Assembly: GCF_031458235.1 (NCBI RefSeq)
Contig: NZ_JAVDYB010000001.1
Location: forward strand, 8,457,001-8,521,000
DNA from: Catenuloplanes atrovinosus
Lineage (GTDB): Bacteria; Actinomycetota; Actinomycetes; Mycobacteriales; Micromonosporaceae
DNA: 64,000 nucleotides
Reading direction: 5' to 3'
Part shown: one piece after another, positions 11,981 through 56,347 of the stretch
Numbering within the stretch: position 1 is the first letter of the stretch
Layout: the number at the start of each line of letters is the position of its first letter
The notes under the pieces: generated by a model
Seen by the model: the letters and a program-made list of their open reading frames with translations, nothing else
Databases searched by the model: none
What the model was told of the DNA's origin: nothing
Position numbers and translations under genes: made by a program

Positions 11981-12161
11981 CCCCGCGCCGGTCGTCGACC
12001 CCCGAGCACCCCGCGACAGGCGCTCCGCGCCCGAAATCTCGGCATATCGCGGCCGACGGTTGATCACTCGCGCGACTCTGTGAGCCTCAGGCACGTCATT
12101 CGAGCGGAATAACGAATGTGACCCCGCGGGACCGGCAGGGAGGAGCGCCGGCGACGACCGG

Positions 12162-12205
12162 TGCCCGCGGGAGCATGCGGACCGCGACCACGCCGGAAGC
12201 GGGAA
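12162..12205 (-). repeat. Convergent-gap repeat, copy R1 (blocks A-B)
   Basis: Read on the minus strand this contains block A (TTTCCCGCTTCCGGCG) followed by block B (CCGCATGCTCCCGCGGGC). It is the shortest clear member of the six-copy family described in the findings and lies in the 277-bp gap between the convergent GntR and glpX genes. A second partial block B lies inside the adjacent glpX terminator loop. Confidence 0.7.
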
Positions 12206-12245
12206 AGAAAGGCCTGGCGGATCGCGCGGGAGCATCCGCCAGGCC
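12204..12245 (-). terminator. Intrinsic terminator of glpX
   Basis: On the minus strand an 11-bp perfect stem (12235-12245 pairing with 12211-12221, GGCCTGGCGGA type) with a 13-nt loop is followed by TTTCTTT at 12204-12210. It starts 13 bp after the glpX stop. This is the only canonical hairpin plus T-tract terminator in the window, and its loop resembles repeat block B. Confidence 0.85.
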
Positions 12246-12257
12246 GGAGGGCCGGTG

Positions 12258-13265
12258 TCAGAGCTGGCCGTCGAAGTTGATGGAGGAGTAGAGGGCGAGT
12301 TTCTCGAGGCGGTGGAAGGAGTCGATGGTGCGGATGGTGCCGCTCTTGGAGCGCATCACGATCGACTGGGTGTAGGCGCCGCCGGAGCGGTAGCGGACGC
12401 CCTTGAGGAGGTCGCCGCTGGTGACGCCGGTGGCGACGAAGAAGCAGTTGTCGCCGGTGACCAGGTCGTCGGTGGTGAGGACGCGGTCGAGGTCGTGGCC
12501 GGCGGCCAGGGCCTTCTCGCGCTCGGCCGGGTCCTGGGGCCAGAGTTTGGCCTGGATCTCGCCGCCCATGCACTTGAGCGCGCAGGCGGCGGTGATGCCC
12601 TCGGGCGTGCCGCCGATGCCCATCAGCACGTCGACCTCGGCGTTCTCGCGGGCGGCGGAGATGGCGCCGGCGATGTCGCCGTCGGAGATGAACTTGATCC
12701 GGGCGCCGGCGTCGCGGACTTCCTTGATCAGGTTGGCGTGGCGGGGGCGGTCGAGGATGCAGACCGTGACGTCGGAGACGCTGCCGCCCTTGACCTTGGC
12801 GATCCGGCGGAGGTTCTCCTGCACGCCGGCCTCGATGTCGATGACGTCGGCGTACTCGGGGCCCACGGCCAGCTTCTCCATGTAGAAGACGGCGCTCGGG
12901 TCGAACATGGCGCCGCGCTGGGCGGCGGCCAGCACCGCGATCGAGCCGGGCATGCCCTTGGCCATCAGCGTGGTGCCGTCGATCGGGTCGACCGCGACGT
13001 CGACCTCGGGGCCGGTCTGGTCGCCGACGATCTCGCCGTTGTAGAGCATCGGGGCGTTGTCCTTCTCGCCCTCGCCGATCACCACGACGCCGCGCATGGA
13101 GATGGAGTTGATCAGCTTGCGCAAGGCGTCGACGGCCGCGCCGTCCCCGCCCTCCTTGTCGCCGCGGCCCACCCAGCGGCCGGCGGCCATGGCGGCGGCC
13201 TCGGTCACGCGGACCAGTTCGAGGGCCAGGTTGCGGTCGAGATCCTGCGGGATGTTGGCGGGCAT
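12258..13265 (-). CDS. glpX: Class II fructose-1,6-bisphosphatase
   Basis: The 335-residue product matches GlpX throughout: [19 protein letters not shown] near the N-terminus, [18 protein letters not shown] with metal-binding acids (about 60-80), and [16 protein letters not shown] (about 88-104) with the second metal and lithium-sensitive motif. It removes the 1-phosphate of fructose 1,6-bisphosphate in gluconeogenesis, in the cytoplasm. In actinobacteria this is usually the only FBPase and essential for growth on non-sugars. The gene is divergent from a DUF4245 gene, an order conserved in Mycobacterium tuberculosis (Rv1099c/Rv1100). Confidence 0.96.
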
Positions 13266-13439
13266 GCGGCCTCCTCGCTACGTTGCGGAGTCGGTCGATC
13301 GCCGTACGCGGTGCGTGGGCGTCTTCATCCGATCCTGGCACGGCGATTCGCCCGGGAGGTAGATGTCCGGCCAGTGGTGTCCGTCGCGCGCGGGTGTGCC
13401 GGATGGCACCGCGACGGGCGCATCCGTCAGGATGGGTAC

Positions 13440-14000
13440 GTGGACGCGGCAGCCTCGGCACAGGACCAGCCTCCGGCGCAGCAGCCGGTGACCCGGCACG
13501 AGCGGAACTGGAAGGACATGGTCCTGTCGCTGCTGGCCATCATGGTGCCGGTGGCGCTGATGGTCGGCTTCTACCGCTATGTCCTGGACGGCGAGGAGCC
13601 GATCGTGGTCGACACCGCGCCGGCGATCGAGGCGGCGCGGGCCTCCCGCGCGTTCCCGGTGCTCGAGCCGGCCGGCCTCGGTGAGGGGTGGCGGCCGACC
13701 AGCGCCGGCTTCCGCACGGTCGAGGGCGGAAAATCCCTTCGCATCGGGTACGTCAGCCCGTCCGACGGCGCGGTCCTGCTGATCGAGAGCACGGTCCCGA
13801 CCGAGAAGCTGCTGCCCGCGGAGCTGACCACCGCCGCGCGCCCCGGCGAGCGCACCACGATCGACGGCCGGGAGTGGCAGTCGTACTCGGCCCGCCCGGG
13901 CGAAAGCGCGCTGGTGCAGCTCAGTCCGGAGCGCACCGTTGTGATCGTCGGCACAGGTGAACGGGACGACCTGCGCGAACTGGCCGACAGCCTGGGCTGA
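13440..14000 (+). CDS. DUF4245 family membrane-anchored protein
   Basis: The 186-residue product has a cytoplasmic tail of about 25 residues, one membrane helix (about 26-46, MVLSLLAIMVPVALMVGFY) and an extracytoplasmic domain of about 135 residues. It matches the DUF4245 proteins found beside glpX in many actinobacteria. Function is unknown. The frame is open far upstream because it runs antisense to glpX; the start is set at GTG 13440, which lies 7 nt after a CAGGAT -10-like box and implies a leaderless message. Confidence 0.82.
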   Translation: MDAAASAQDQPPAQQPVTRHERNWKDMVLSLLAIMVPVALMVGFYRYVLDGEEPIVVDTAPAIEAARASRAFPVLEPAGLGEGWRPTSAGFRTVEGGKSLRIGYVSPSDGAVLLIESTVPTEKLLPAELTTAARPGERTTIDGREWQSYSARPGESALVQLSPERTVVIVGTGERDDLRELADSLG

Positions 14001-14099
14001 GCGCCGCACGGCGCCGAATAATCGCGAGGAATCGTCGGACCCCGTCGGTACGGTCTTCACAGTTTTCTTCCAGCACCCTCCGATGGAGAGAAATCCATA

Positions 14100-14927
14100 G
14101 TGAAGACCACACGGGGTTTCCACGCCGGCATCGCCGGTCTCGCCGCGGTCGCGGTCGCCCTCGGCGGCTGCGGTGCGCAGGGGAGCGCGGCACCGGCCCC
14201 CGCCTCGGCCTCGGCCACCGCCCAGGCCGTTCCGGCCGACCCCAAGGCGGCGCTCGCCGCATCCGTCAACGCGATCAACGTCGACACGCACTACGCGTTC
14301 GCCGTCGACTCCGCCTCGATGAAGACCTCCGGCGTCGTGCACGGGCCCACCCGTTCCATGGCGCTGACCTCGACGATGACCGGCGAGCCCGCGTTCTCGA
14401 TGGAGCTGTACTACGTCGAGCCGCACAGTACGTACATGCGGACCGACGTGTTCGCCGTGCTGGCCGAGGCCTTCGGCGCCGGCACCGCGGAGCTCACGCC
14501 GCTCGGCCTCGACGGTGAGAAGTGGCTGAGGTTCGACCCGGCGCGGGCGCGGGACTTCACCGCCATCTCGTTCGCGGACACCGACCTGGCCGACGTCGCC
14601 GAGCCGCTCGGCAAGGGCCTGGTCTCCGCCGAGCAGACCGGTCCGGGGCAGTACAAGGGGGTGGCGAACCTCTACGACCACACCCCGTCGGAGTACGTGA
14701 TGTTCCGGGATGAGGACGGGCTCGACGAGAAGCTCAAGGCCGTGCCGTTCACCGCGGCGCTCGACGCCCAGGGCCGGCTCACGTCGGTGGCCTACGACAT
14801 CGGCGGCGCGCCGCTCACCATCACGTTCTCCGAGTACGGGTCGGCCGCCGCGCCGGCCAAGCCCGCCGGCGCGGACGTGGTCGAGGCCACCGACGCGACG
14901 TACTCGCAACTCGACAGCCAGTCCTGA
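14100..14927 (+). CDS. Exported lipoprotein, paralogue 1
   Basis: The 275-residue protein has a lipoprotein signal with lipobox LGGC (Cys24), a low-complexity Ala/Ser/Pro spacer, and a soluble domain of about 220 residues beginning ADPKAALAASVNAINVDTHYAF. The layout resembles the LppX/LprG-like or DUF1396-type actinobacterial lipoproteins that carry lipids in a beta-sandwich pocket, but the match is too weak for naming. A GGAGAG ribosome site precedes the GTG. It is followed 13 bp later by a clear paralogue, so the two form a tandem duplicate operon. Confidence 0.8.
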   Translation: MKTTRGFHAGIAGLAAVAVALGGCGAQGSAAPAPASASATAQAVPADPKAALAASVNAINVDTHYAFAVDSASMKTSGVVHGPTRSMALTSTMTGEPAFSMELYYVEPHSTYMRTDVFAVLAEAFGAGTAELTPLGLDGEKWLRFDPARARDFTAISFADTDLADVAEPLGKGLVSAEQTGPGQYKGVANLYDHTPSEYVMFRDEDGLDEKLKAVPFTAALDAQGRLTSVAYDIGGAPLTITFSEYGSAAAPAKPAGADVVEATDATYSQLDSQS

Positions 14928-14940
14928 GGGGATCGCGGAC

Positions 14941-15753
14941 ATGCCCAGGTCACTCACCGCGATCACCGCGGCCGTCACGCTGTCGGCGCTGCTCGCCGGC
15001 TGCGCCACCGTCCCCGGCGGCACCGCCGCCCCGGCGCCCTCGATCTCCTCCGCGCCCGCGGTCGATCCGAAGGCGGCGCTCGCCTCCGCGTTCGCCGCGA
15101 TGGAGGAGGGCCGCTACGCCTACGACATCGCCTACGATCCGGGTGTCGGCGGCACGGTCCTGGTCGACAACGACTCCGGGTCGATCCACGCGACCGTGAC
15201 GATCACCGGCGAGGACGACTCGTCGATGACGTTCGAGTACCACATCACCGACGAGTTCCTGTTCATGAAGATGGACATGAGCGCCATCGCCGCGGAGCTC
15301 GGCGGCGGGCCGGTGCCGGAGGGCCTCGACGGGCGGAAGTGGATCCGGATCAGCCCGGAGCGGGCCGGCGGCCTCACCGAGAGCATGGACCAGATCGCGC
15401 TCGACCCGGCCTACGTCGAGCGCAGCATCCGGACGATCACGCAGCGGACCCCGCACACGTTCAGCGGCACGATCGACCTGACCACGCTCACCCCGAAGCG
15501 GTTCGGCCGCCTCGACCAGGACCCGGAGACGAAGGCGTTCGAGGACGCGGCGAAGAACGTGCCGTTCCGCGCGGAGACCGACGTCAAGGGCCGCATCTCG
15601 GTCTTCACGGCGACCGTGGAGGTCGACGGCGAGCCGATGATCATGTCGCTGCAATTCCGCGGCTGGGGCGAGGTCGCGTTCCCACCGGTGCCCGGCCCGG
15701 GAACGTATGTCGACCCGCCGGCCGGGTTCTCCGGCGCGGAGGTCACGGCCTGA
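14941..15753 (+). CDS. Exported lipoprotein, paralogue 2
   Basis: The 270-residue protein has lipobox LLAGC (Cys21) and a similar spacer, then VDPKAALASAFAAMEEGRYAYDI, which aligns with the same region of the preceding gene. Shared landmarks include a GLDG(E/R)KW(L/I)R stretch and an xKxVPFxAxxDxxGR segment near the C-terminus. The two probably act outside the membrane on related ligands (inference). The ATG at 14941 is chosen because it follows a GGGGATC spacer and begins the signal peptide. Confidence 0.82.
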   Translation: MPRSLTAITAAVTLSALLAGCATVPGGTAAPAPSISSAPAVDPKAALASAFAAMEEGRYAYDIAYDPGVGGTVLVDNDSGSIHATVTITGEDDSSMTFEYHITDEFLFMKMDMSAIAAELGGGPVPEGLDGRKWIRISPERAGGLTESMDQIALDPAYVERSIRTITQRTPHTFSGTIDLTTLTPKRFGRLDQDPETKAFEDAAKNVPFRAETDVKGRISVFTATVEVDGEPMIMSLQFRGWGEVAFPPVPGPGTYVDPPAGFSGAEVTA

Positions 15754-15760
15754 TCCGGCC

Positions 15761-15794
15761 CTCCGGCGCGGGTGGTCCGCCACTCGCGCCGGAG
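15761..15794. terminator. Bidirectional hairpin between lipoprotein and xseB
   Basis: CTCCGGCGCG (15761-15770) pairs perfectly with CGCGCCGGAG (15785-15794). The 14-nt loop can itself form GTGG/CCAC pairs. It lies in the 82-bp gap between two convergent operons. Confidence 0.65.
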
Positions 15795-15835
15795 GCGCCG
15801 GTGCCGCTGCTCGACGCGGGAGGCGCCGGTGGCCG

Positions 15836-16039
15836 CTACTGCGCGCGTGCCTCGCGGGCCGCGTCGAGCTTGGCGCGGGCGCCGTCCAGCCAGCGCTGGC
15901 AGATCGCGGCCAGCTCCTCGCCGCGCTCCCAGAGCGCCAGCGACTCCTCCAGCGAGGTGCCGCCGGCCTCCAGCCGCTCGACGACGCGGCCCAGTTCCTC
16001 GCGCGCCTGCTCGTAGCTCAGCTTCTGCTCCGTGGTCAT
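15836..16039 (-). CDS. xseB: Exodeoxyribonuclease VII small subunit
   Basis: The 67-residue product [20 protein letters not shown] is all helical and has the XseB signature [21 protein letters not shown]. Several copies bind one XseA to make exonuclease VII, which degrades single-stranded DNA in the cytoplasm. Its start overlaps the xseA stop (ATGA at 16036-16039), so the subunits are co-translated. The frame is open well upstream because it runs inside xseA. Confidence 0.93.
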
Positions 16040-17364
16040 GCACTGTCCTTCCGGGACTTGCGGGGCTTCGGGGTGGTCGCGCCGGCCGCGGAGTCGTCCG
16101 TGACGACCGCGGAGAGTGAGCCGGTGGCCAGGCGGACCCGCAGCGGTGTGCCCGGACCGGCCTCGTCGGCGGCCCGGACCACGTGGCCGTCTGCGGTGCG
16201 CTGGACGATCGCGTACCCCCGCTGGAGCGTCGCGGCCGGGGAGAGCGCGCGCAGCCGGGCCAGCGTGTGGGACAGCTCGTTGGCGGCGGTGGCCAGCCGG
16301 TGGCCGAGCGTGCGCTCGCCGCGGTCGCGCAGCGCGACCACCTCGGACGCACGCTGGTCGATCATCACGTGCGGGCGGGCGAGCACCGGGCGGGAGCGCC
16401 ACGCCTCGATGCGCTGCGACTCGCGGTCCAGGCGGTGCAGCACCGCGCGGTCCAGCCGGTGCCGGGCCAGCGAGATCAGCCGCTGCTCCTCGGCCAGGTC
16501 CGGGACCAGGCGTTTCGCGGCGTCGGTGGGGGTGGACGCGCGGACGTCGGCCACGTAGTCCAGCAGCGGCGTGTCCTCCTCGTGCCCGATCGCGCTGACC
16601 ACGGGCGTGCGGCAGGCGAACACGGCCCGGCACAGCGCCTCGTCGGAGAACGGCAGCAGGTCCTCCACGCTGCCGCCGCCGCGCGCGATCACGATGACGT
16701 CGACGGTGGGGTCGTCGTCCAGCACCTTCAGCGCGTCGAGGATCTGCGGCACCGCGGACACGCCCTGGGTGGCCACGTTGATCACGCGGAAGTCCACGGC
16801 CGGCCACCGGCGTCGCGCGTTCGTCAGCACGTCGCGCTCGGCCGCGGACGCCCGGCCGGTGATCAGGCCGATGCGTTGCGGCAGAAACGGCGGCCGTCGC
16901 TTCCGCTCGCGCGCGAACAGGCCCTCCGCGCCGAGCAGCCGCTTCAGCTTCTCCAGCCGGGCCAGCAACTCACCCAGCCCGACCTGCCGGATCTCGTCGG
17001 CCCGGAAGCTGAGCGTGCCGCGCGCCGCATAGAACTCCGGCTTCGCGTGCAGAACCACGCGCGCGCCCTCGGACAGCTCGGGCGCGCCGACGCTGAGCAC
17101 CTCGTGGCTGGTGGTCACGGTCAGGCTCAGTTCCGCGGCCGGGTCGCGCAGCGTGATGAAGACGGTGCCGCTGCCCGGCCGGCGGCTGATCTGCGCCACC
17201 TGCCCGTCGACCCAGACCCAGCCGAGCTTGGCGATCCAGGCGCTGACCTTCTGGCTGACCACGCGCACCGGCCACGGCTCGTCCGGCGTGCTGGCACCCG
17301 GGGCGCCCGGCGCGCTCGGCGCACCCAGCGCGCCGCCGCCGCGAGGGGTCTGTGTCACCCCCAC
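16036..17364 (-). CDS. xseA: Exodeoxyribonuclease VII large subunit
   Basis: The 442-residue product has an N-terminal OB-fold (about 30-125), the catalytic core with [33 protein letters not shown] and [24 protein letters not shown] (about 165-310), and a C-terminal helical region that carries the XseB subunits. It makes acid-soluble oligonucleotides from single-stranded DNA during repair. The first 25 residues are a Gly/Ala/Pro-rich extension before the OB-fold, so the real start could be a little downstream. Confidence 0.94.
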
Positions 17365-17448
17365 ACCCTAGAACCACCCTCCGACAGTCCCGCCCGCCCG
17401 GGACCGGGGGCCGCGGACGCGCTGTCGTCCGGCTCACACCCCGATCAG

Positions 17449-17493
17449 TTGCTTTGAATCCGAAGCAAGTCCTACTCTTCGATTACTACGAAG
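17449..17493 (+). promoter_or_regulatory. Promoter with two palindromes before the quinone oxidoreductase gene
   Basis: TTGCTT (17449-17454) pairs with AAGCAA (17463-17468), and CTTCG (17477-17481) pairs with CGAAG (17489-17493). TTGCTT can also serve as a -35 box, with TACTCT (17473-17478) 18 bp downstream. Overlap of palindromes with promoter boxes suggests control by a MarR- or HxlR-type regulator, but none lies nearby. Confidence 0.4.
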
Positions 17494-17519
17494 TCGAAGC
17501 AATGTTCGAGGAGATCGCC

Positions 17520-18446
17520 ATGAAGGCAGTGCGGTTCCATGAGTACGGCGACCCGTCCGTCCTGCGGTACGAGGACGTGGAGCGGCCCGTCCCCGGCGCC
17601 GGGCAGGTGCGCATCCGGGTCGCGGCGACGTCGTTCAACGGCGTGGACGGCAACATCCGGGCCGGCTACATGCGGGGCCCGATCCCGGTGACGCTGCCGC
17701 ACACGCCGGGACTCGACGTGTCCGGCACGGTCGACGCGCTGGGCGAGGGCGTGGACACCGTCACGGCCGGCGACGCGGTCATCGGATTCCTGCCGATGAC
17801 CGGCACCGGCGCGGCCGCGGAATACGTGATCGCCCCGGCCGGCATCCTGGCGCCGGCGCCCGCGAGCATCCCGCTGCCGGACGCCGCCGCGCTGCCGGTG
17901 GTGGGCCTGACCGCGTGGCAGGCGCTGTTCGACCACGCCCGGGTGACCGCGGGCCGGCGGGTGCTGATCAACGGCGCGGGCGGCGCGGTCGGCCGCTACG
18001 CCGTGCAACTGGCCAAGAACGCGGGCGCCTACGTGATCGCGACGGCCGCGCCGCGCAGCAGCGAGCGCGTCGCGGCGGCCGACGAGGTCGTCGACTACAC
18101 CACCACCGAGGTGACCGCGGCCGTCGCCGAGCCGGTCGACGTGGTGCTCAACCTCGCGCCGATCTCCCCGGAGCGGCTCGCCGCGCTGGTCACGCTGATC
18201 CGGCCCGGCGGCGTGCTGGTGAACACCACCGTGTGGATGCCCGCGCCGGGCGACGAGGCGCGCGACGTGCGCGGCATCGACCTCTTCGTGCGCAGCGACG
18301 CGGCCCAGCTCGCCCACCTGGCGAGCCTGGTCGACGCCGGTGAGCTGCGGGTTGACGTCGCCGCGCGGGTGCCGCTGGCGGAACTCGCGTCGGTCCACGC
18401 CGACCCGGCCGCCACGTCCGGCAAGACCGTCATCGTCGTCGCCTGA
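17520..18446 (+). CDS. NADP-dependent quinone oxidoreductase-like alcohol dehydrogenase
   Basis: The 308-residue product belongs to the zinc-free medium-chain reductase branch. It has the N-terminal GroES-like fold (MKAVRFHEYGDPSVLRYEDV), then the nucleotide-binding motif INGAGGAVGRYAVQLAKNAG (about 150-170) with VIATA after it. The zinc-binding cysteines of true alcohol dehydrogenases are absent. Such enzymes reduce quinones or enones with NADPH. The start is ATG 17520; the frame is open upstream, and an ATG at 17502 would add six residues without family support. The gene converges with a membrane protein gene over the hairpin at 18510-18541. Confidence 0.88.
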   Translation: MKAVRFHEYGDPSVLRYEDVERPVPGAGQVRIRVAATSFNGVDGNIRAGYMRGPIPVTLPHTPGLDVSGTVDALGEGVDTVTAGDAVIGFLPMTGTGAAAEYVIAPAGILAPAPASIPLPDAAALPVVGLTAWQALFDHARVTAGRRVLINGAGGAVGRYAVQLAKNAGAYVIATAAPRSSERVAAADEVVDYTTTEVTAAVAEPVDVVLNLAPISPERLAALVTLIRPGGVLVNTTVWMPAPGDEARDVRGIDLFVRSDAAQLAHLASLVDAGELRVDVAARVPLAELASVHADPAATSGKTVIVVA

Positions 18447-18509
18447 CTCTTTCCTCCCGCGACTTCCTGGCCGGGCACCGCGCCGAACCGGCGGCCTGCT
18501 CCGAGTCGT

Positions 18510-18541
18510 GACGCCGCCACCCGGACGCGGGTGGCGGTGTC
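18510..18541. terminator. Bidirectional hairpin between two convergent genes
   Basis: Positions 18510-18523 pair with 18528-18541 as a 14-bp stem (CCGCCACCCG/CGGGTGGCGG core, one G-T pair) with a 4-nt GACG loop. It overlaps the stop codon of the minus-strand gene. Confidence 0.65.
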
Positions 18542-19055
18542 ACGCGCGGGACCGGGCGGCGCGCACCGCCACGGTGACCAGCACGGCCAGGACCAGGCCG
18601 CAGTACGCCCAGAACAGCGCGTCCGCCGCCGCGTACCCCCAGTCCGGGCGCCACGGCACGTCGGACAGCGCGGCCCGGGCCACCGCCACCGACTCGCCCG
18701 GCGCGGTCCGGTGCGCCGCGTGCAGCGGATAGCCGAGCCGCAGCGTGTACGAGAACGCCTCCACCGAGCCCTGCTCGCGCACCAGCAGCGACGCCGCGGT
18801 CCCGGCCGGCCCGGCGACCGCCGCGGCGCCCAGCGTCCACCGGGTCAGCACGCCCCACCGCGACGCGTACAGCAGCAGCGCGCCGCCGGCCAGGTAGCCG
18901 GCGGCCAGCACGACGAGCCGGGAACTGGTCGCCGTGGTCGCCGACATGTAGATCAGCCAGCCGCCGGCGAGCATGCTGAGCAGGGCGAGACTGCGGCGCA
19001 GCGCGATCGGCACCGCCGCGCCCAGTGAGGCGAGTCCGCCCTGTTCATCCGGCAT
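18540..19055 (-). CDS. Four-helix membrane protein of unknown function
   Basis: The 171-residue product has about four hydrophobic helices (near residues 22-40, 46-64, 72-92 and 142-164) and a soluble stretch of about 45 residues between helices 3 and 4. No family is recognised. Its start is divergent from ispH, about 100 bp away. Basic residues close the C-terminus (VRAARSRA). Codon use matches its neighbours, so there is no sign of transfer. Confidence 0.65.
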
Positions 19056-19141
19056 GTGGATATTTTGTGCCGGGCCCGAGCGGGACGGGGCGGAACGTGT
19101 GCGGTGGGTCGCACGATCACGGGGTACGGCGGCGGGGTGCG

Positions 19142-19147
19142 TACCAT
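19142..19147 (+). promoter_or_regulatory. -10 element for leaderless ispH
   Basis: TACCAT ends 7 nt before GTG 19154. This placement supports that GTG over the upstream in-frame candidates. Confidence 0.55.
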
Positions 19148-19153
19148 GGCGGT

Positions 19154-21251: not shown

Positions 21252-21374
21252 CCCACCGAGGATGCCGCAGCGGGCGCCGCGCGGCCGGGACCGCCACGGC
21301 CGGAATCCGAGAAACCGTCAGAACTCAGCAGACTCACAGGGCGGCGCACGGTGTCGCGGAGCTACCGTTCATTC

Positions 21375-22136: not shown

Positions 22137-22145
22137 GCGGGTCGG

Positions 22146-22174
22146 TTGACAGCTTCACCGCGGCTCGACAGGGT
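22146..22174 (+). promoter_or_regulatory. Promoter of the MOSC gene, leaderless
   Basis: TTGACA (22146-22151), a 17-bp spacer and CAGGGT (22169-22174) are followed after 6 nt by the GTG start at 22181. This is the best-formed leaderless promoter in the window. Confidence 0.6.
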
Positions 22175-22180
22175 TGGCAG

Positions 22181-22909: not shown

Positions 22910-22943
22910 TGCTAGCCGGATGGCTCCGCCGCCCTCCGCTTGG

Positions 22944-22949
22944 CAGAGT
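22944..22949 (+). promoter_or_regulatory. -10 element for a leaderless membrane protein gene
   Basis: CAGAGT ends 7 nt before GTG 22957; no ribosome site lies between. Confidence 0.45.
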
Positions 22950-22956
22950 CGATGCC

Positions 22957-23580: not shown

Positions 23581-23590
23581 CGGGGCTCCA

Positions 23591-23628
23591 CGTCCCGCTC
23601 CCGGCCAGGTCCGGCCCCGCATGCTCCA
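23591..23628 (+). repeat. Convergent-gap repeat, copy R2 (truncated A-B)
   Basis: A degenerate block A (GTCCCGCTCCCGGCC) is followed by a block B that stops after GCATGCTCC. It is the most decayed copy, 10 bp after the stop of the upstream gene and opposite valS. Confidence 0.55.
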
Positions 23629-28398: not shown

Positions 28399-28560
28399 CC
28401 GGGGACGACCCCGGACCCCGATCTTCCCGCTCCCAGCCCGGTCCGGTCCGCATGCTCCCGCGGGCAAACCTCCGGCTTCCCTCCGACTCCGCTGGCGCTC
28501 CGCTCCGGTCCGCCGGTCGGAGCCGGCGTCCGTGTGGTCACCGAAGACCCCGCGAGTCGC
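28399..28560 (+). repeat. Convergent-gap repeat, copy R3 (blocks C-A-B-D)
   Basis: It begins 17 bp after the DUF3152 stop with block C, a 6-bp hairpin (CCGGGG, ACGA loop, CCCCGG, 28399-28414). Block A (TTCCCGCTCCCAGCCCGG), block B (CCGCATGCTCCCGCGGGC) and the tail block D (AAACCTC then ACTCCGCTGGCGCTCCGCTC) follow. It fills most of the 357-bp gap before the convergent ABC exporter gene. Confidence 0.8.
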
Positions 28561-28591
28561 GCTCACCCTCTCCCCGCAGCGCGCCATCCGT

Positions 28592-28664
28592 CCCGCTTTG
28601 CTCTGCTTACCCGGGCGGGTCGGGCGCGTCTTCCGGCCCGCTTTGCTCTGCTTACCCGCGCGGG
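28592..28664 (+). repeat. Two 28-bp direct repeats in the R3 gap
   Basis: CCCGCTTTGCTCTGCTTACC followed by CGGGCGGG (28592-28619) recurs as the same 20 bases followed by CGCGCGGG (28637-28664), with a 45-bp period. Only one base differs. Each unit has CCCGC and GCGGG at its ends and could fold as a hairpin. Confidence 0.75.
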
Positions 28665-37510: not shown

Positions 37511-37680
37511 CTGGCCACGCCGGGACCGGCTCCGTCGCCGCGAGCGGAGCGGAGCGCCAGCGGAGTCGGAGCGCGCGGCGAGGTTTGCCCGCGGGAGCAT
37601 GCGGAAACCGGCCGCGCCGGAAGCGGGAATATGGGGTCCGGGGTTGTTCCCGGGGCTGGCGCAGTGCCCGCGGGAGCGAC
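37511..37680 (-). repeat. Convergent-gap repeat, copy R4 (blocks B-C-A-B-D, inverted)
   Basis: Read on the minus strand it holds a partial block B (CTCCCGCGGGCAC), block C (CCCCGGGAACAACCCCGG), block A, block B (CCGCATGCTCCCGCGGGC) and tail block D. Its D block is almost identical to that of copy R5 over about 70 bases, including ACTCCGCTGGCGCTCCGCTC and CGCGGCGACGGAGCCGGTCC. It starts 3 bp from the stop of the MazF-type gene. Confidence 0.85.
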
Positions 37681-43754: not shown

Positions 43755-43756
43755 CG

Positions 43757-44656: not shown

Positions 44657-44664
44657 GGTTGCCC

Positions 44665-45081: not shown

Positions 45082-45095
45082 GCGCCGAGAACCGA

Positions 45096-45290
45096 TTTCC
45101 CGCTTCCGGCCCGGCTGGGTCCCGCATGCTCCCGCGGGCACTGTGCCGGCCCCGGGGACGACCCCGGACCCCAATCTTCCCGCTTCCGGCCCGGCTGAGC
45201 CCCGCATGCTCCCGCGGGCCAACCTCGCCGCGGGCTTCGACTCCGCTGGCGCTCCGCTCCGCTCGCGGCGACGGAGCCGGTCCCGGCGTG
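45096..45290 (+). repeat. Convergent-gap repeat, copy R5 (blocks A-B-C-A-B-D)
   Basis: Block A (TTCCCGCTTCCGGCCCGG) occurs twice exactly 80 bp apart (CGCTTCCGGC at 45101 and 45181), each followed by block B (CGCATGCTCCCGCGGGC). Between them is block C with the same CCGGGG-ACGA-CCCCGG hairpin as R3 (45152-45167). The tail D block (45220-45290) is nearly identical to R4. It lies in the 321-bp gap between the NUDIX gene and convergent sdhB. Confidence 0.85.
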
Positions 45291-45317
45291 GCCGGGGAAG
45301 AACCACGCGACGGCCGT

Positions 45318-45347
45318 CGCCGGCCGAGCCGCGTGGCGCGGCCGGCG
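45318..45347. terminator. Hairpin after sdhB
   Basis: CGCCGGCC (45318-45325) pairs with GGCCGGCG (45340-45347), 14-nt loop, 55 bp after the sdhB stop on the minus strand. Confidence 0.45.
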
Positions 45348-45402
45348 TTGCGGGGGCGTGGCGGCCGCCGGACGCCTGCGGAGTCATGACGGGGAGGCAC
45401 CG

Positions 45403-46458: not shown

Positions 46459-46462
46459 CTGC

Positions 46463-48358: not shown

Positions 48359-48367
48359 GGTCGGCCC

Positions 48368-49150: not shown

Positions 49151-49331
49151 CCAGGCTCCCCTGACGCTGTGAACGCGCGCTCGTCTGTGACCCACGTTAC
49201 GCCGTGTGTGACGTGGACCATGCGAAAGGGAGTCTGGGTGTTACGGGCCGACTACGAAACCCCTGCCGGGCCGTTACGGGACAATGTGGCCAAGGTCACT
49301 GATCACGATGGACGGTTGATCTTGCATAGAC

Positions 49332-49952
49332 TCACAGCGATGGCTCGGTGAGCCGGCGCAGCGGGCCGTCGCACCCGTCCGGGCCGTCCGCGATCAGCCG
49401 GTCCGCCACCGGGTCCGCGTCCTCGTCGCGCGGTGGCAGGTAGAACGCGGGGTCGCCGCCGCCGGCCGCCCGGTCCAGCGCGTCCGCGTAACTGGCGCGC
49501 GCCTCGATCACCTGCCGCCAGCCGTCCGACCACTCCTGGTCCAGGTAGTCCCCGGCGTGCCCGGCCGAGTGCGCGGCGCGGACCCGCTCCAGCTCCAGCA
49601 GGAACGGGCGGGCCGCCACGTTCTCGTCGCGGATCGCCTTCGCCCGCGCGGCCGGGCCGTTCGTGGCGCCGGGCGGGACCAGCCGGTTGAGCCGCTGCTC
49701 CAGGTCGAGACAGGCCGCGTCCACATCGGTGCGCACCTCCGCCTCCACGGCCCGGTCCTCCCGGTTCAGGTCGACCGCGCCGCGCACGGCCGCCATGACC
49801 GCGAGCAGGGCGCCGCAGCTGACCAGCACGATGAGCACCAGCGCGCCGGCCACGATCAGCGTCCAGCCGCGCCGGCCGATGCCCCGCCGCGCGGGCGCCT
49901 CGGGCGCCGGCTCGGGCGCGGGGTCCGATGGCGAAGGCGATGAATCCGTCAC
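49332..49952 (-). CDS. Single-pass membrane protein of unknown function
   Basis: The 206-residue product has a Pro/Ala-rich cytoplasmic tail (1-27), one membrane helix (about 30-58) and an outer helical domain of about 145 residues (VDAACLDLEQRLNRLV, FLLELERVRAAHS). No family is recognised. It lies between the S9 homologue and sdhC on the same strand, with separate spacing of 24 and 181 bp. Confidence 0.65.
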   Translation of the reverse strand: MTDSSPSPSDPAPEPAPEAPARRGIGRRGWTLIVAGALVLIVLVSCGALLAVMAAVRGAVDLNREDRAVEAEVRTDVDAACLDLEQRLNRLVPPGATNGPAARAKAIRDENVAARPFLLELERVRAAHSAGHAGDYLDQEWSDGWRQVIEARASYADALDRAAGGGDPAFYLPPRDEDADPVADRLIADGPDGCDGPLRRLTEPSL

Positions 49953-49976
49953 ACGTGCCAGTGAAGCACCCGGACG

Positions 49977-52082
49977 CTAAACGGTGGGCAGATGCCGGCG
50001 GACGAAATCCAGCTCCAGCGGCAGCAGCCGCTCCGCCACCCCGGCCGCGGCCAGCCGCGCCACCCCGGAGAGCGGCAACACCGCGTGCGGGCGCCCGGCC
50101 GCCACCATCGCGGCCGAGAGCCGCAGCGTGTGCGCGGCCAGGATGGAGTCGTCCGCCATGCCGTGCACCAGCAGCAGCGGGCGCGCCTCGTCCGGCCGGA
50201 CCGGCGGCTCGGCCGCGATCTCCACCAGGTTGTGCCGCGCGTAGACCTCGTCGTCCGGCAGCCCCAGGTACCGCTCGGTGAACGCGGTGTTGTGCAGCGC
50301 CCAGTCGGTCAGCGGCGTGCGCGCCACCCCGCAGGCGAAGACGTCCGGGCGGCGCAGCACCGCGAGCGCGGCCAGCCAGCCGCCGAGCGCCCAGCCGCGC
50401 ACGGCGATCCGGCGCAGGTCCAGGTCCGGGTGCTTCTCGCCGAGCGCCTCCAGCGCGTCCACCTGGTCGGCCAGCGCGATGTCGGCCAGCCGCCGGTGCA
50501 CCACCTTCTCGAAGCTGGGCGCGACGCCGGGCGTACCCCGGTTGTCGATGGTCACGACGGCGAAGCCGGCGTCCGCCCACCACTGCCGCTCCAGCCACCA
50601 GGCGCGTGCGGCCAGCACCTCCTGCCGGCCCGGACCGCCGTAGACGTCCAGCAGCACCGGCAGCCGGCCGCCGGCGTGGTGGCGCGGGTAGAGCACCGCG
50701 GCCGGCAGCCGCCGGTCGGTGACCCGGGACAGCGCGGGCCGCGGCGCGAACGGCGGCGGCGACGCGTGCGAGGCCAGCCCGCCGATCCGGGTGTCGCCGC
50801 GCCAGACCGACCACTGGGTGCCCGCGTGGTCCAGCGACAGCCGGCCGATCGCGAGCAGCCCGCCGGCCGCGGCGGCCACGTGCCAGCCCGGCTCCGTGGT
50901 GAGCCGCTTCGCCTCCATGCCGCCCGCGCCGAGCGCGCCCCGAATCCGGTAGACGTGCTGCTCCGAGGGCTCGCCGTCGGTGCCCTCGACCAGCAGGTCC
51001 GGCGCGCCGCCGGCGACCGGGCCGACCACCCGGCGCACGTAGAGCGAGGGCGGCGTGAGCAGGCTGCCGTCCGCGAACAGGCAGCGCGCGTCGTATCCGT
51101 CGTGGGCCAGCTCGCCGCCGACCAGCACCCGGCCGTCCGGAAGGTGGCAGGGCGTGCCCTCGACCGGCTCCACCCAGCGCGGGTCGGTCAGCTCCGCGTG
51201 CACCTGCGTCTCGCCGGTGCGCGGGTCCACGGAGAGCACCAGCCCGTGCTGCTGCAGCCGGCGCAGCACCGCGATCAGCGGGCCGCCGTCGGCCCAGCGC
51301 ACCGCCACCGGGTACGGGTACGTCTCCCGGTCCCAGTGCACGTCCACCCAGCCGCCGTCCAGGTCCAGCAGGTGCAGGCTGACCTGCGGGTTCGGCCCGC
51401 CGGCCCGCGGGTACGCCAGGCTCGGCGCCGGCTCGCCCGGATCGACCGGGTCGTGCAGGTAGACCCGGGGCAGCCGGGACGTGTCCACCCGCGCCGCCAG
51501 CACGGTCCGCCCGTCCGGCGACCACCAGTAGCCGCGCCCCCGGTCGAACGCCTCGCCGGCCAGGTAGTCGATCGCCCCCCAGGAGACCGTGCCGTTGCTG
51601 TCCAGCTCACCCGCGAGCATGACATCCGTGCCGTCCGGCTCCACGATGTGCAGCGCGGTCGTGGCCGTGGGCTCGCCGCGCGCGGTCAGCCCGGGGTGCG
51701 CGGTCAGGTACGCGATCCGCTCGCCGGCCGGGTCGGGCCGCGGATCGACCGCCGGCCCGGCCGTCACCACCTCGACCACGTCGCCGTTGATCAGGTCGGC
51801 GCGGAACAGGCGCCCGGCGACGGTGAACGCCGCGATGTGCCCGTTGCGGTCCAGCGCGTACGACGTGATGCCCTCACGCCGGTCGCCGACCAGCTCGACC
51901 GGCTCCGCGACCAGCCGCTCCTCGCCGGTGGCGGCGTCCAGCATCCAGAGACAGCCGGCCGGGTCCTCCGGCCCGGTGGAGCGGATGAAGATCACCCGGC
52001 CGCCGTCGCCCGCGACGCTGACCGAGAGCGGGCTCCCATTGGTGAACCGGCGGGTACGGGCGGCGAGTTCTGGATAGTCCAC
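49977..52082 (-). CDS. Inactive S9 (dipeptidyl peptidase IV-like) homologue
   Basis: The 701-residue product has a seven- or eight-bladed beta-propeller (about 30-450) and an alpha/beta-hydrolase domain (about 455-700), as in cytoplasmic S9 DPP IV-like peptidases. The nucleophile elbow GWSxGG reads GWALGG with Ala565, and the position of the catalytic His (SGVTH in relatives) reads SGVAR with Arg676. Asp644 in GMADDS remains. Two of three triad residues are thus gone while length and fold are complete. The frame is intact and codon use is normal, so it is a pseudoenzyme rather than a decaying gene. A binding or scaffold role is inference. Confidence 0.88.
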
Positions 52083-52145
52083 CGTCAGATCATCCTCCAG
52101 AAACCGTGCTTTTGGGCTGTTTCGGGGGAGGGCCGGGCCCCCGCG

Positions 52146-52151
52146 TAGAGT
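52146..52151 (+). promoter_or_regulatory. -10 element for leaderless mshB
   Basis: TAGAGT ends 7 nt before GTG 52159, so transcription should begin on that codon. An upstream in-frame GTG (52150) would lie inside the -10 box and can be ruled out if this promoter is used. Confidence 0.6.
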
Positions 52152-52158
52152 GTCTCGG

Positions 52159-53076
52159 GTGACGACGCACAGCGCGGCCCGCCGCCTCCTGCTGGTGCAT
52201 GCCCATCCCGACGACGAGTCGATCGGGACCGGCGCGACGATGGCTCACTACGCGGCCGCCGGCGCCCACGTGACGCTCGTGACCTGCACGCTCGGCGAGG
52301 AGGGCGAGATCCACCTGCCGGAGCTGATCGGCCTGGCCGCGGACGCGGCCGACCAGCTCGGCGGCTACCGGGCGGCCGAGCTCTCCGCCGCCTGCGCCGC
52401 GCTCGGCGTGACCGACCGGCGGTTCCTCGGCGGCGCCGGCCGCTACCGCGACTCCGGCATGATGGGCCTGGCCACCAACGCGCACCCGCGCGCGTTCTGG
52501 CAGGCCGACCTGGACACCGCGGCCGGCTTCCTGGTCGAGGTCATGCGCGAGGTCCGGCCACAGGTGGTGGTCACCTACGACGACAACGGCTTCTACGGCC
52601 ACCCCGACCACATCCAGGCGCACCGGGTCACGATGCGCGCCTGCGAGCTGGCCCGGGCCGAGGGCTTCGGGCCCGACAAGATCTACTTCCAGGCCACGCC
52701 GCGCAGCGTGCTCGCGGCCGGCATCGAGCAGTTCGGGCAGACCACGGGCAACCCGTTCTCCGGCGTCGAGGTGCCGGACGAGTTGCCGTTCGGCTCGTCG
52801 GACGAGGAGATCGCGGCCCGGATCGACGCCACCGACTCCGCGGACGCGAAGGTGGCGGCGATGAAGGCGCACGCCAGCCAGATCCCGCTGGACTCCTGGC
52901 TCTACTCGATCGCGGGCAACTTCGGCGGCGAGTTCATGGGCGTGGAGTTCTACACGCTGGCGTACGGCGAGCGTGGCCCGGGCGACGGCCCGCACGGCTG
53001 GGAGAGCGACCTGTTCGCGGGCCTGGCGACGGAGCCGGCCGGCGCGGAGGTCCCCGCCGGGGCGCTGTCGAGGTGA
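52159..53076 (+). CDS. mshB: GlcNAc-inositol deacetylase of mycothiol synthesis
   Basis: The 305-residue product has the zinc motif AHPDDE (His16, Asp19, Glu20) and HPDH (His151), as in MshB. MshB deacetylates GlcNAc-Ins, giving GlcN-Ins for coupling to cysteine by MshC. This shows that the organism makes mycothiol and so is an actinobacterium. The start at 52159 removes three residues from the longest frame and follows from the -10 box position. The downstream small membrane gene overlaps by 4 bp, as at Rv1170-Rv1171. Confidence 0.94.
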
Positions 53077-53546
53077 GCGCGCCGCCCCCCTCGCCGTACC
53101 CGCACCGGGTGCCGGCGCTGGACATCGACCCGGAGTGGCTGGAGCCGCTGCCGGAGGCGAAGGGCATGACCGTCACCGACCTGCTGCTGCGCATCCTCGG
53201 CGGCGTGCTGGTGGTGCTGGCCGCGGTGGTCACCGCGGTGCTGGAGGTGTTCTTCACGCCGCTGCGGCTGGGCGGCGTCCTGATCGGCGCGTCCGCGCTC
53301 GGCGCCGTCGTGGCGAACGTGGCGCTCGCCGTGTTCGCGCTGCGCACGGTCGGCGCGAAGTGGGCGGTGGCGCTGCCCGCGGTCGCCTGGTTCACGGTGC
53401 TGATGTGGGGCGCGGGCAGCACCAGCGAGGGCGACATCCTGCTGGCCGACAACAACTGGGTCGGGCTCGCCACCATCTTCACCGGCTCGATGGCGTTCGC
53501 GGTCGTGGCGTACCGCGTCATCCTGCCGCCGCCCGATCGCTCCTGA
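53073..53546 (+). CDS. Membrane protein coupled to mshB
   Basis: The 157-residue product has a proline-rich start ([24 protein letters not shown]) and four hydrophobic helices (about 34-55, 63-82, 92-112 and 128-150). Its GTG overlaps the mshB stop (GTGA, 53073-53076). A small membrane protein is found at the same place in mycobacteria, but no function is known. Translational coupling suggests a link to mycothiol production or transport (inference). Confidence 0.75.
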
Positions 53547-53709
53547 CCAGGCAAAACGTTATCGGTTCGTCATAACGCGCGGGCAGGATGGCTGCGGCTG
53601 ATCCACTGAGCAATTCTCAACCTGGCCCGCGTGGCGGGGCGGCGTGGCGACGATCGACGATCCGGGTGCGTCAGGTTGAAGAAGGCTCACTGCCTGGCGA
53701 GGTGCCGAC

Positions 53710-55386
53710 GTGACCGTTCCCCCGTTCTCCGAGGACGACGCCCCGACCGTGCGGTTCGCCCGCATAGCCGGGTTCGCGCCGACCGCGCTGCCGGACGTAC
53801 CGCCCCCGGCCGAGAACGCCCGCCCCCGCCGCCGCTGGCCGGTCGCGCTGGCCGGCCTGCTGGTCGCCGCGGTGCTCACCGGCGGCGGCGGGGTGGCCTG
53901 GGCCGCGCGCGGCGACGTGCCGCACGGCACCCGCGTGCTCGGCGTCCACCTGGGCGGCCTGACCGCCGCGGAGGCCGGCGAGCGGCTGCGCGCCGACGCC
54001 CGCCTGTCCCGCCGGCTGACCGAGCCGTTCACCATCTCGCTGGCCGGCGCGGAGATCGTCACGGTCGAGCCGGCCGCGATCGGCCTGGCCGTCGACGTGC
54101 CGGCCACGGTCGCGGCCGCGGCCTCCGGCGGCCGGCTGATCGGCATCGCGGACGTGGCGCCGGTGGTCACGGTCGACGGGCGGAAACTGCACGACGTGCT
54201 GCACGCCGCCGCGGTCCGGGCGAAGCTGGCCACGCCCGGCACGCCCGCCGCGATCACGTACCGGGGCACCACGCCGGTCGCGGTCCACCCGGAGCCGGGC
54301 CGCGGCATCGACGCGACGGCCGCCGCCGCGGTCGTCACCTCCGCCTGGGCCCGCCGGGACGTGCCGCGCGTCGCGTTCACCGAGACCGCGCCGGCCACCA
54401 CCCGCGAGGACGTGGACCGGCTGATGCGCGAGCTGGCCGTGCCCGCCACCGCCGCGCCGGTCCGGGCCGGCGCGTTCGAGATCTCGCCCGAGGTGATCGC
54501 GCGGAGCCTGGTCTTCGAGGGCGACCCGCTCACCCCCCGGATCGACGAGAAGCGGCTGCGCCAGGCGCTGGGCACCACGCTGACCGACCTGGAGACCCCG
54601 GTCCGCGACGCCGCGATCGACGTCGACGACGGCTGGCCGCGAATCACCGAGGCGGTCACCGGCCGCACCGCCGACCTCGGCGCGCTCGCCCGCGACCTGT
54701 TCCACGTGCTGCCGGCGACCGGCGACCGCACGATCACCGCCACGTTCACCGAGACCCGGCCCGCGGTCGGCACCGCGGACGTGGAACGGCTCGGCATCAC
54801 GGAGCGGCTCGCCTCGTACACCACGTACGGCACCGAGCCCGCGTCCGTGGACGAGCGGCTGAACGGCACGGTCATCAAGCCCGGCGAGACGTTCTCGCTG
54901 CACGACGCCGCCGGCCGGGACGCGAGCCCGCAACTGGCCGCCACCGTGTTCGTCGCGGCGTACCGGGCCGGGCTGGAGGACGTGGAGCACCGGCCGCACG
55001 CCACCTACCGGGAGAACCTGCCCGCGGTGACCGAGGCGACCGCCGGCCCCGGCCAGGACCTGCGCTTCCGCAACGACACCAGGCACGGCGTGCTGGTCGC
55101 GGCGCGCGTGTCCGGCCGGGCGATCACGGTGTCGCTGTGGGGCACCCGGGTCTACGACTGGATCGGCACCGAGTACGGCCCGCGCACCGGCGTCACCGAC
55201 CTGGAGATCGAATATCGTGAGCCCGGTCCCGACTGTGAATTCGAGGCCGGATCCCGAGGCTTCTCCCAGGACGCGTGGCGTATCTTCCGCAGGGACGGCA
55301 GGGAAGTCGCACGCGAGAAGTTCAGCTGGACCTATGAGTCACTGCCCCGCGTCGTCTGCGGGCAGGGGAGGGGAGTGTCACGATGA
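53710..55386 (+). CDS. VanW/YoaR-like membrane-anchored cell-wall protein
   Basis: The 558-residue product has a cytoplasmic tail, one membrane helix (about 43-66) and a long outer part. Two PG_binding_4-type repeats (about 75-185 and 210-340) precede a VanW domain (about 360-480) with NGTVIKPGETFSLHDAAG and DLRFRNDTRHGVLVAA. The usual GGGxxQ loop of VanW is replaced by a shorter RDASPQLAATVFVAAYRAGL segment. Such proteins bind or shape the cell wall. GTG 53710 begins the conserved tail. A membrane protein gene follows with a 4-bp overlap. Confidence 0.85.
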   Translation: MTVPPFSEDDAPTVRFARIAGFAPTALPDVPPPAENARPRRRWPVALAGLLVAAVLTGGGGVAWAARGDVPHGTRVLGVHLGGLTAAEAGERLRADARLSRRLTEPFTISLAGAEIVTVEPAAIGLAVDVPATVAAAASGGRLIGIADVAPVVTVDGRKLHDVLHAAAVRAKLATPGTPAAITYRGTTPVAVHPEPGRGIDATAAAAVVTSAWARRDVPRVAFTETAPATTREDVDRLMRELAVPATAAPVRAGAFEISPEVIARSLVFEGDPLTPRIDEKRLRQALGTTLTDLETPVRDAAIDVDDGWPRITEAVTGRTADLGALARDLFHVLPATGDRTITATFTETRPAVGTADVERLGITERLASYTTYGTEPASVDERLNGTVIKPGETFSLHDAAGRDASPQLAATVFVAAYRAGLEDVEHRPHATYRENLPAVTEATAGPGQDLRFRNDTRHGVLVAARVSGRAITVSLWGTRVYDWIGTEYGPRTGVTDLEIEYREPGPDCEFEAGSRGFSQDAWRIFRRDGREVAREKFSWTYESLPRVVCGQGRGVSR

Positions 55387-55865
55387 GAAACCGCTGGCTG
55401 CCGGTTGGCGTGCTCGCCGGTGTGCTGTTCCTGATCAACGTCATCGCGCGGCTGATCAGCCGGTTCGCGTTCGACGACGATCCGAGCGCGCAGGACACGG
55501 TGTCGACCGTGATGTTCCTGGTGATCGGCGTGATCATCGCGGTGCAGGCGTTCCGCTGGGGCCGGGCGCGCCCGCTCGACTCGTGGAGCGGCGACATGGT
55601 CGCCATCGTGACCGCCGCGATGCTCCTGACGGTGCTGGTCGGCCCGTTCATCAGCGGCGACTCGCCGTTCGTCAACGGCGCCGGCGCGTTCTTCGCCCAG
55701 ATCTGGCTCTACCTGGGCGTCACCATCGGCGGCGCGATCCTCGGCTACCTACTGCTGATGGCGCTCGGCTGGGACTACCGCTCACAGTCGCTGAAGCGCT
55801 ACGAGGAGAACCGCCTGGCCGCCGCACGCCCCACCAAGAACCGCCGCACCACCATCCGCCGCTGA
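55383..55865 (+). CDS. Four-helix membrane protein coupled to VanW-like gene
   Basis: The 160-residue product has four hydrophobic helices (about 6-28, 41-58, 76-94 and 106-130) and a basic C-terminus (RPTKNRRTTIRR). The ATG overlaps the VanW-like stop (ATGA, 55383-55386). Function is unknown. A repeat-rich convergent gap of 482 bp follows. Confidence 0.72.
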   Translation: MRNRWLPVGVLAGVLFLINVIARLISRFAFDDDPSAQDTVSTVMFLVIGVIIAVQAFRWGRARPLDSWSGDMVAIVTAAMLLTVLVGPFISGDSPFVNGAGAFFAQIWLYLGVTIGGAILGYLLLMALGWDYRSQSLKRYEENRLAAARPTKNRRTTIRR

Positions 55866-55928
55866 AGGCCCCATAAGCCCGACATATCCGCCTCGGGGGT
55901 GTCGGGGTTACGCGCTTCGGCGGAACGA

Positions 55929-56220
55929 TCCCGGACCCCGATCTTCCCGCTTTCCCGGCGGGGTCGGGGTCCGCGTGTTCCCGCGGGCGCCGTGCCGGTT
56001 CCGGGGGCGACCCCGGACCTCTCTTCTCCCGCTCCCGGCGGGTCCGCACGCTCCCGCGGGCGCCGTGCCGGTTCCGAGGGCGACCCCGGACCTCGATTTC
56101 CCGCTCCCGGCGCGGTCGCGGTCCGCATGCTCCCGCGGGCAAACCTCGCGGCGTCTCCGCCGCCGCTCCGCCGCCGCGTCGGAGCCGGTGCCGCCGCTGG
56201 TCACCCAAGACCGCGCGACA
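55929..56220 (+). repeat. Convergent-gap repeat, copy R6 (three tandem units plus tail)
   Basis: Three units each hold block C end (CCCGGACC, at 55930, 56012 and 56085), block A (TTCCCGCT...CCGGCG) and block B (CCGCATGCTCCCGCGGGC and variants), giving periods of 82 and 73 bp. CGCCGTGCCGGTTCCG links units 1-2 and 2-3. The last unit runs into tail block D (AAACCTCGCGGCG then GTCGGAGCCGGTGCCG). It is the largest copy. Confidence 0.85.
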
Positions 56221-56222
56221 TC

Positions 56223-56256
56223 GCCTGTGGTCGCGGCACCGGCCGCGGCCACAGGC
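56223..56256. terminator. Hairpin between VanW operon and GNAT gene
   Basis: Positions 56223-56236 pair with 56243-56256 as a 14-bp stem (GCCTGTGG and CGCGG arms, one T-G pair) with a 6-nt loop. It lies between R6 and the GNAT stop. Confidence 0.6.
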
Positions 56257-56347
56257 ACGTGGCGGACCGCGCGGCGGCGCGCCGCGAGCCTCGGGACCGG
56301 CACCGGCGCACGAGTGTGGCGGCCGGAGGCCGCCAGGGCGGCGTGGG

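Follow-up and report, generated by a model that had tools for sequence, protein, structure and literature searches.

A REP-like family of modular, probably mobile repeats in the intergenic gaps of Catenuloplanes

A Dispersed Repeat Family in Catenuloplanes atrovinosus

The analyzed window, a stretch of 64,000 nucleotides (bases 8457001-8521000 of the 8.907-Mb single-contig genome of Catenuloplanes atrovinosus), contains six loci, R1 to R6, of a modular repeat that is assembled from short blocks, named A, B, C, and D, and lies between convergent genes. These loci belong to a genuine, lineage-restricted family that resembles the repetitive extragenic palindromic (REP) sequences and very probably moves between genomic sites. 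Its members are probably short, directional, modular, and non-autonomous mobile repeats with a REP-like life style.

The 16-base block B occurs 201 times without mismatch in the 8.9-Mb C. atrovinosus genome (93 forward and 108 reverse copies), whereas the reversed pattern is absent from both strands (0 + 0); with up to two mismatches, 318 matches were identified compared with 33 for the reversed pattern. A profile of blocks A and B, applied to five stretches that together sample 1.66 Mb of the genome, detected 94 units scoring at least 13 bits (best score 59.7), while the best score in the reversed sequence is 12.0. These controls show that the similarity, first noticed in the window by an earlier note, is not a product of chance. 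No exact block B is listed between positions 4045246 and 4897459 of the genome, the first megabase having 36, and 200 kb sampled within this 4.05-4.9 Mb region yielded one weak unit (21.2 bits, at position 4472354).

The genomic context of the repeats was determined with a codon-usage gene caller trained on the C. atrovinosus genome and not with a curated annotation. The 72 loci in the 1.66-Mb sample (73 if split by strand) comprise 47 loci in convergent gaps, 23 in co-directional gaps, one in a divergent gap, and one in DNA called as coding. Counted by gaps, a copy is present in 42 of 255 convergent, 22 of 940 co-directional, and 1 of 252 divergent gaps; among gaps of at least 220 bp, the respective fractions are 32 of 68, 18 of 133, and 1 of 91. 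Random placement in the intergenic DNA of the same genome (1000 draws) resulted in a mean of 19.1 and a maximum of 32 convergent loci vs. the 47 observed, and in a mean of 19.9 and a minimum of six divergent loci vs. the one observed. The single divergent locus (166881-166925) and a convergent one (165066-165343) can be read as two sides of one copy region split by an insertion sequence (IS) of the IS110 family at 165382-166880, the transposase gene of which was taken as a neighbor; likewise, a co-directional copy at position 5462983 would count as convergent without its IS110 element, and the counts were kept as computed. In another genus of the same family, here designated g31, the 22 units with two called neighbors include 12 convergent, 10 co-directional, and no divergent cases. 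From C. japonicus, 22 loci at the edges of the sampled stretches were excluded from the context count.

Strict confinement to convergent gaps, as proposed from the window, is ruled out by the co-directional loci, which make up about one third of the total; genome-wide, it becomes a strong tendency. Divergent gaps are avoided as proposed, whereas co-directional gaps are not free of the repeat. In the same way, the claim that every convergent gap longer than 220 bp carries a copy is correct for the window (six of six) but describes less than half of such gaps in the larger sample, while the expected lack of copies in short convergent gaps is complete, with none in the 155 gaps below 100 bp.

Presence and Absence of the Repeat in Sister Species

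We compared orthologous gaps across four sister species (G001-G004), with ~100 kb analyzed in each. The repeats at R1, R2, and R5 are present in one of the five genomes, R4 in one of the four comparable genomes, R3 in two, and R6 in four of five; together with four further gaps that are filled in sister species only, this amounts to ten filled gaps. The sister gaps opposite R1, R2, R4, and R5 range from a 24-bp overlap to 127 bp, plus one gap of 260 bp. Across all orthologous convergent gaps, the median length is 34.5 bp for empty gaps (n = 56) and 439 bp for filled gaps (n = 14). Thus, the long gaps are long because of the repeats, given that the repeats are absent from every comparable gap orthologous to R1, R2, R4, and R5 and that empty gaps are short.

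A compact hairpin is present in several of the empty sites. At R4, three sister species have a short gap filled by such a hairpin. In C. atrovinosus, this hairpin is preserved beside the plus-strand gene, and the new DNA is located between the hairpin and the stop codon of the minus-strand gene, which points to insertion. At R3, the copies of C. atrovinosus and G001 are oppositely oriented, indicating two separate arrivals in the same gap. Overall, insertion rather than loss is a well-supported explanation for the differences between species, and a mobile repeat is the best supported of the possibilities that the earlier note had listed.

We propose that copies settle in short spacers behind stop codons, where an insertion would turn a spacer of some tens of bp into one of several hundred bp. 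That most copies lie in convergent gaps would reflect the absence of promoters there; co-directional gaps retain some, and divergent gaps would be purged. The copies would be made by an enzyme acting in trans on the hairpins of blocks B and D.

Anatomy of the Repeat and Its Hairpins

A basic copy appears to consist of an A+T-rich lead, block A, block B, and a short end segment, which an optional hairpin tail of type D1 or D2 may precede. Tandem units are linked through block C. Block B forms a small hairpin with the stem YCCGC/GCGGG and a loop that is mostly ATGCTCCC (57 of the 94 profile units of C. atrovinosus). The base composition of 148 leads (A 0.26, C 0.30, G 0.18, T 0.26) is rich in A+T and poor in G compared with the 30 nt past ordinary convergent stops (A 0.13, C 0.40, G 0.34, T 0.13), and in young C. 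japonicus copies the lead looks like a part of the copied unit. Among 180 copies selected by near-match to B, 81 possess tail D1 and 54 tail D2; the other 45 have something else, no tail, or a further unit, and this class mixes tail-less copies with the inner units of arrays. The tail subfamilies differ from species to species. In g31, block A is different, while block B and a similar end segment are found again, as is a D hairpin, which in many copies has the same GCTGGCGCTC core. A perfect hairpin past the tail was considered as another standing part of the repeat and rejected, as a stem of at least 9 within 200 nt follows 8 of 113 tails compared with 26 of 300 control windows.

The D tail has retained a hairpin despite numerous two-sided changes. 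In C. japonicus, the 13-pair stem of D1 is paired in 523 of 611 cells, compared with a mean of 368 and a maximum of 395 over 2000 shuffles, and only 33-47% of cells are paired in stems slid along the sequence as a control; moreover, most of the covarying columns ranked at the top without any prior structure fall within this stem. However, A-C mismatches (20 cells) are more frequent than G-U pairs (8 cells), and without a G-U excess the pairing does not demonstrate selection on RNA. In g31, two paired versions of the inner arms of D, GGCTCGC/GCGAGCC and GGCGAGC/GCTCGCC, exist alongside mixtures of both that do not pair. Both the shortage of G-U pairs and these swapped arms would be expected if the paired changes in the D stem arose via template-switching palindrome correction during DNA copying, or through a DNA hairpin, and not by selection on RNA. 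We regard this origin as possible but rather doubtful, since the counts are few and derive from related copies; it pertains to the D stem only, accounts for neither the spread nor the position of the repeat, and is compatible with a mobile element.

The B stem behaves differently: in 160 of 165 copies, its invariant G faces C or T, a pattern that, contrary to the D stem, would point to an RNA stem. The copies used for B-stem pairing were, as for the tail classes, chosen by near-match to B (and an exact pattern was used to pick the loci of C. japonicus and g31), so the invariance of B among them is partly a matter of choice. A less biased count is provided by the 94 profile units of C. atrovinosus, of which 54 match block B exactly, 16 have one mismatch, and 24 have two or more.

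Insertion Sequences in the Repeat and the Search for a Mobilizing Enzyme

The repeats are used as landing sites by ISs of two families. Two identical 1499-bp IS110 elements of C. atrovinosus, at 5463023-5464521 (locus L084) and 165382-166880, are inserted at the same point inside block B (GCATGCTC / CTCCCGCGGGC) and encode a protein with the DEDD_Tnp_IS110 and Transposase_20 domains. In C. japonicus, an element with the same two domains occupies the D1 loop after CTCCGCTGGC (locus L133, ~6560-8000), and the same IS end sequence follows CTCCGCTGGC in the D1 loop of another locus (L168, ~1860-2026), where only this end of the element lies on the stretch examined. In addition, a C. atrovinosus gene for an IS4-type transposase (Nterm_IS4 and DDE_Tnp_1 domains; 3336933-3338162, equivalent to 6933-8162 of locus L109) adjoins a D2 tail that is broken after ACCGGTC. 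The 5' non-coding end of the 1499-bp IS110 elements contains 7-base stretches complementary to CTCCCGC in two places, which is about the level expected by chance; they could be part of a putative bridge-RNA guide for block B.

A search of the two carrier genera (11 genomes, including that of C. atrovinosus; E ≤ 0.001) found no RAYT-type Y1 transposase (PF01797), the enzyme by which REPs are usually moved, whereas 5 of 14 control genomes gave a match. Ten of these 11 genomes carry exact copies of block B and the eleventh (G078) only seven inexact ones; G078 and G102 are fragmented assemblies. A GTGG or GTAG sequence within 18 nt before GCATGC is present in 26 of 72 copies of C. atrovinosus and in 83 of 93 copies of C. 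japonicus; this sequence falls within block A, a few bases away from the stem of B, and C. atrovinosus has not conserved it. A transposase shared among the flanking genes was rejected, none being recognized by eye in the 14 largest clusters of these genes. Between two inverted copies of the repeat, contig 70 of C. japonicus (locus L137) has two ordinary genes. Both ends of this 3702-bp contig lie inside nearly identical inverted repeat copies, which suggests that the repeat may break short-read assemblies.

Several observations weigh against a mobile repeat. Neither an autonomous relative nor a mobilizing enzyme was found, and by-eye inspection of the 14 largest clusters of flanking genes, drawn from partial genomes, recognized no transposase. 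Neither a target duplication nor an exact insertion boundary is readable from the flanks of filled and empty sites, because the sister species have diverged (orthologous proteins are on average 84-88% identical). Within the filled gaps, non-coding DNA that is not repeat and has no explanation often exceeds the repeat itself, and the G003 gap orthologous to R5 is 260 bp long yet lacks the repeat. Alternatively, several lineages may have lost the repeat precisely, although this would be the less parsimonious course.

The Six Loci of the Window

The convergent gaps of the window that exceed 220 bp are 277, 223, 357, 485, 321, and 482 bp long and correspond to R1 through R6, with one repeat locus each; the remaining convergent gene pairs are spaced by 93 bp or less, or overlap. 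Blocks A, B, C, and D were all confirmed at the positions originally described. Two details of the original anatomy required correction, as R1 does carry a tail, of type D2, and R4 has a partial second unit.

R1 (12130-12205, minus strand) is a single A-B unit (A, 12188-12205; B, 12163-12180) with the short tail D2 at 12130-12162; a hairpin and a T-rich run, seen by eye, separate it from the stop codon of the minus-strand gene. R2 (23592-23628, plus strand) is a decayed copy with A and a B that is cut off after CCGCATGCTCC, and no tail is seen. R3 (28399-28551, plus strand) combines a C hairpin (28399-28414), A (28424-28441), B (28448-28465), and the long tail D1, which extends to ~28540. R4 (37511-37680, minus strand) contains A (37612-37629), B (37587-37604), D1 (~37511-37586), and, in its partial second unit, a C-like hairpin at 37638-37653. 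R5 (45097-45300, plus strand) has two A-B units (A at 45097 and 45177; B at 45122 and 45202) joined by a C linker (45152-45167) and followed by D1, while R6 (55929-56210, plus strand) has three A-B units (B at 55971, 56044, and 56123), C linkers, and a diverged D1-like tail. Block B is exact in R1, R3, R4, both units of R5, and one unit of R6, the other two R6 units having one and two mismatches.

Other small repeats were noticed as well. A second dispersed motif, CCCGAAATNTCGNNATAT, located at 12030-12047 of the window (genome position 8469030), occurs in 54 places with at most one mismatch (control, 0); below 5.388 Mb, 12 of its 28 places are less than 1 kb from an exact block B, compared with 3.8% of random places. 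Several copies of a third small repeat (GGTAAGCAGAGCAAAG, or the complement of this sequence) lie within long convergent gaps, e.g., at ~28590-28655 of the window and ~8170770-8171220 of the genome. Finally, an array of a ~30-bp tandem unit (ACACCCGCACAGAAACCGGCGGC...) at genome positions ~5236200-5236520 occupies a convergent gap, with one copy of the modular repeat on either side, the two being inverted relative to each other.

Taxonomic Distribution

Exact copies of block B were detected in 13 of 250 genomes that represent 44 genera of the family: five Catenuloplanes genomes with 105-201 copies each, five of the six g31 genomes with 8-52 copies each, and three further genomes from two further genera with one match each. 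A search of 111 genomes with a longer pattern, allowing up to three mismatches, yielded 196-312 matches per Catenuloplanes genome and 30, 114, 7, 95, and 24 matches in five g31 genomes, the seven being those of G078, which lacks an exact B. One genome of genus g24 has 15 matches vs. 4 for the control, one of genus g18 has 6 vs. 3, and the remaining genomes have at most 4. Thus, among the 44 genera sampled, the family exceeds the control level in Catenuloplanes (all five genomes) and one other genus and perhaps, to a slight extent, in a third. When named genomes were scanned with a pattern, the 76 stretches retrieved were all from C. japonicus. One 123-base C. japonicus copy had no match in plasmid and phage collections. 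A search of the window against Rfam at gathering score gave no matches, and a lax Rfam search of four loci gave a single microRNA match, in locus L130 and away from its repeats.

Possible Roles at Gene Ends

An alternative view is that the repeat is a functional 3'-end module, the transcribed hairpins of which stop transcription or protect the end of the mRNA and are kept for that purpose, its spread being secondary. In its favor, 52 of 72 C. atrovinosus loci lie within 60 bp behind a stop codon of the same strand (random mean 7.4, maximum 16), although such closeness is nearly automatic for any insertion in a short convergent gap. The composition of the lead, the preserved pairing of the D1 stem, and the C or T opposite the invariant G of the B stem, as a G-U-tolerant RNA stem would give, fit this function as well, but the predominance of A-C mismatches over G-U pairs in the D1 stem does not.

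Orientation provides a further test. Co-directional copies are in sense at 17 of 24 loci in C. atrovinosus, 21 of 36 in C. japonicus, and 6 of 11 in G001-G004, i.e., at 44 of 71 Catenuloplanes loci (one-sided p = 0.028), a count in which copies are related and at least one locus enters twice, as L156 and as position 99262 of G002; in g31, by contrast, 4 of 10 such units lie in sense. A sense preference in co-directional gaps is therefore possible, but not established. A strict rule placing copies in sense behind a stop codon, as 45 of 47 convergent loci would suggest, was rejected on the basis of these co-directional counts; the convergent figure says little, because in a short gap the A end adjoins a stop codon in either orientation.

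Folding of the whole element is unremarkable next to ordinary 3' regions. The mean folding z-scores of sense copies are -0.74 for D2 (n = 25) and -1.16 for D1 (n = 22) in C. atrovinosus and -1.27 for D1 in C. japonicus (n = 25), those of antisense copies range from -0.53 to -1.05, and 40 ordinary 3' regions average -1.65. The best 44-nt windows (70 sequences each) have energies of -23.7 kcal/mol in the elements and -24.2 kcal/mol at other 3' ends, compared with -21.2 kcal/mol in coding DNA and -17.4 kcal/mol in divergent gaps, and the consensus has no T run behind B or D. In degree of structure, the repeat roughly matches a gene end and does not exceed it, so that neither a special terminator nor the bidirectional terminator suggested earlier gains support from folding. 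Orthologous genes, moreover, often do without the repeat. Taken together, we consider a primary 3'-end function unlikely.

A protein-binding DNA site, for gyrase or a nucleoid protein, that relieves supercoiling between convergent genes as proposed for bacterial interspersed mosaic elements (BIMEs) would agree with the position of most copies and with B being the best conserved part (54 of 94 profile units exact and 16 with one mismatch), but it is very improbable, as 36 of 68 convergent gaps of at least 220 bp and all 155 below 100 bp have no copy and the presence of the repeat is mostly not common to the species.

Comparison with Known Repeats and Implications

The likeness to REP and BIME elements, previously drawn for position and not for sequence, holds. 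Tobes and Pareja (PMC1525189) report that REPs are frequently found where genes converge and that they are targeted by IS110, IS4, and other families. REPs are also tied to a GT(A/G)G head and to RAYT enzymes, on which they are thought to depend (PMC2817692), and to REP doublets (PMC3116915). Like REPs and REPINs by definition, the Catenuloplanes repeat is short, extragenic, and palindromic and occurs in a large number of copies. With REPs, BIMEs, and REPINs, it shares hundreds of extragenic copies, imperfect hairpins, tandem composites, and species-specific subfamilies (PMC2817692, PMC3116915), and with REPs the preference for convergent gaps (PMC1525189). In contrast, it is longer (~110-200 bp) and directional, with the order A-B-D, seems to lack a GT(A/G)G head right at the palindrome foot, and comes from genera in which no Y1/RAYT gene was found in 11 genomes. 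The insertion of IS110 elements in block B and in D1 loops and of an IS4 element in D2 parallels the targeting of REPs by IS110 and IS4 and that by IS621 with its bridge RNA (PMC1525189, PMC11208160), while the target sequence is different. The repeat also resembles, by general description, the enterobacterial RU-1 and RU-2, which PMC2759123 presents as similar to miniature inverted-repeat transposable elements (MITEs): both are non-autonomous, 100-200 bp long, intergenic, and dispersed, but neither terminal inverted repeats nor target-site duplications were noticed in aligned young copies of the Catenuloplanes repeat.

No description of this family was found in the open-licence literature searched. 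More tentatively, the family may represent a new class of bacterial mobile hairpin repeat that arrives where transcription units end and is moved by an enzyme other than Y1. B would then be the recognized signal, D would be preserved for the hairpin it forms in single-stranded DNA, and the family would have generated 32 of the 68 long convergent gaps in the sampled part of the genome, close to half. A REP-like family for which no RAYT was found, above the control level in only two and perhaps three of 44 sampled genera, would mean that the gene-end niche was occupied on more than one occasion. The comparison of sister species shows that dispersed repeats lengthen convergent gaps, and the repeat provides a landing site for IS110 elements in an actinomycete.

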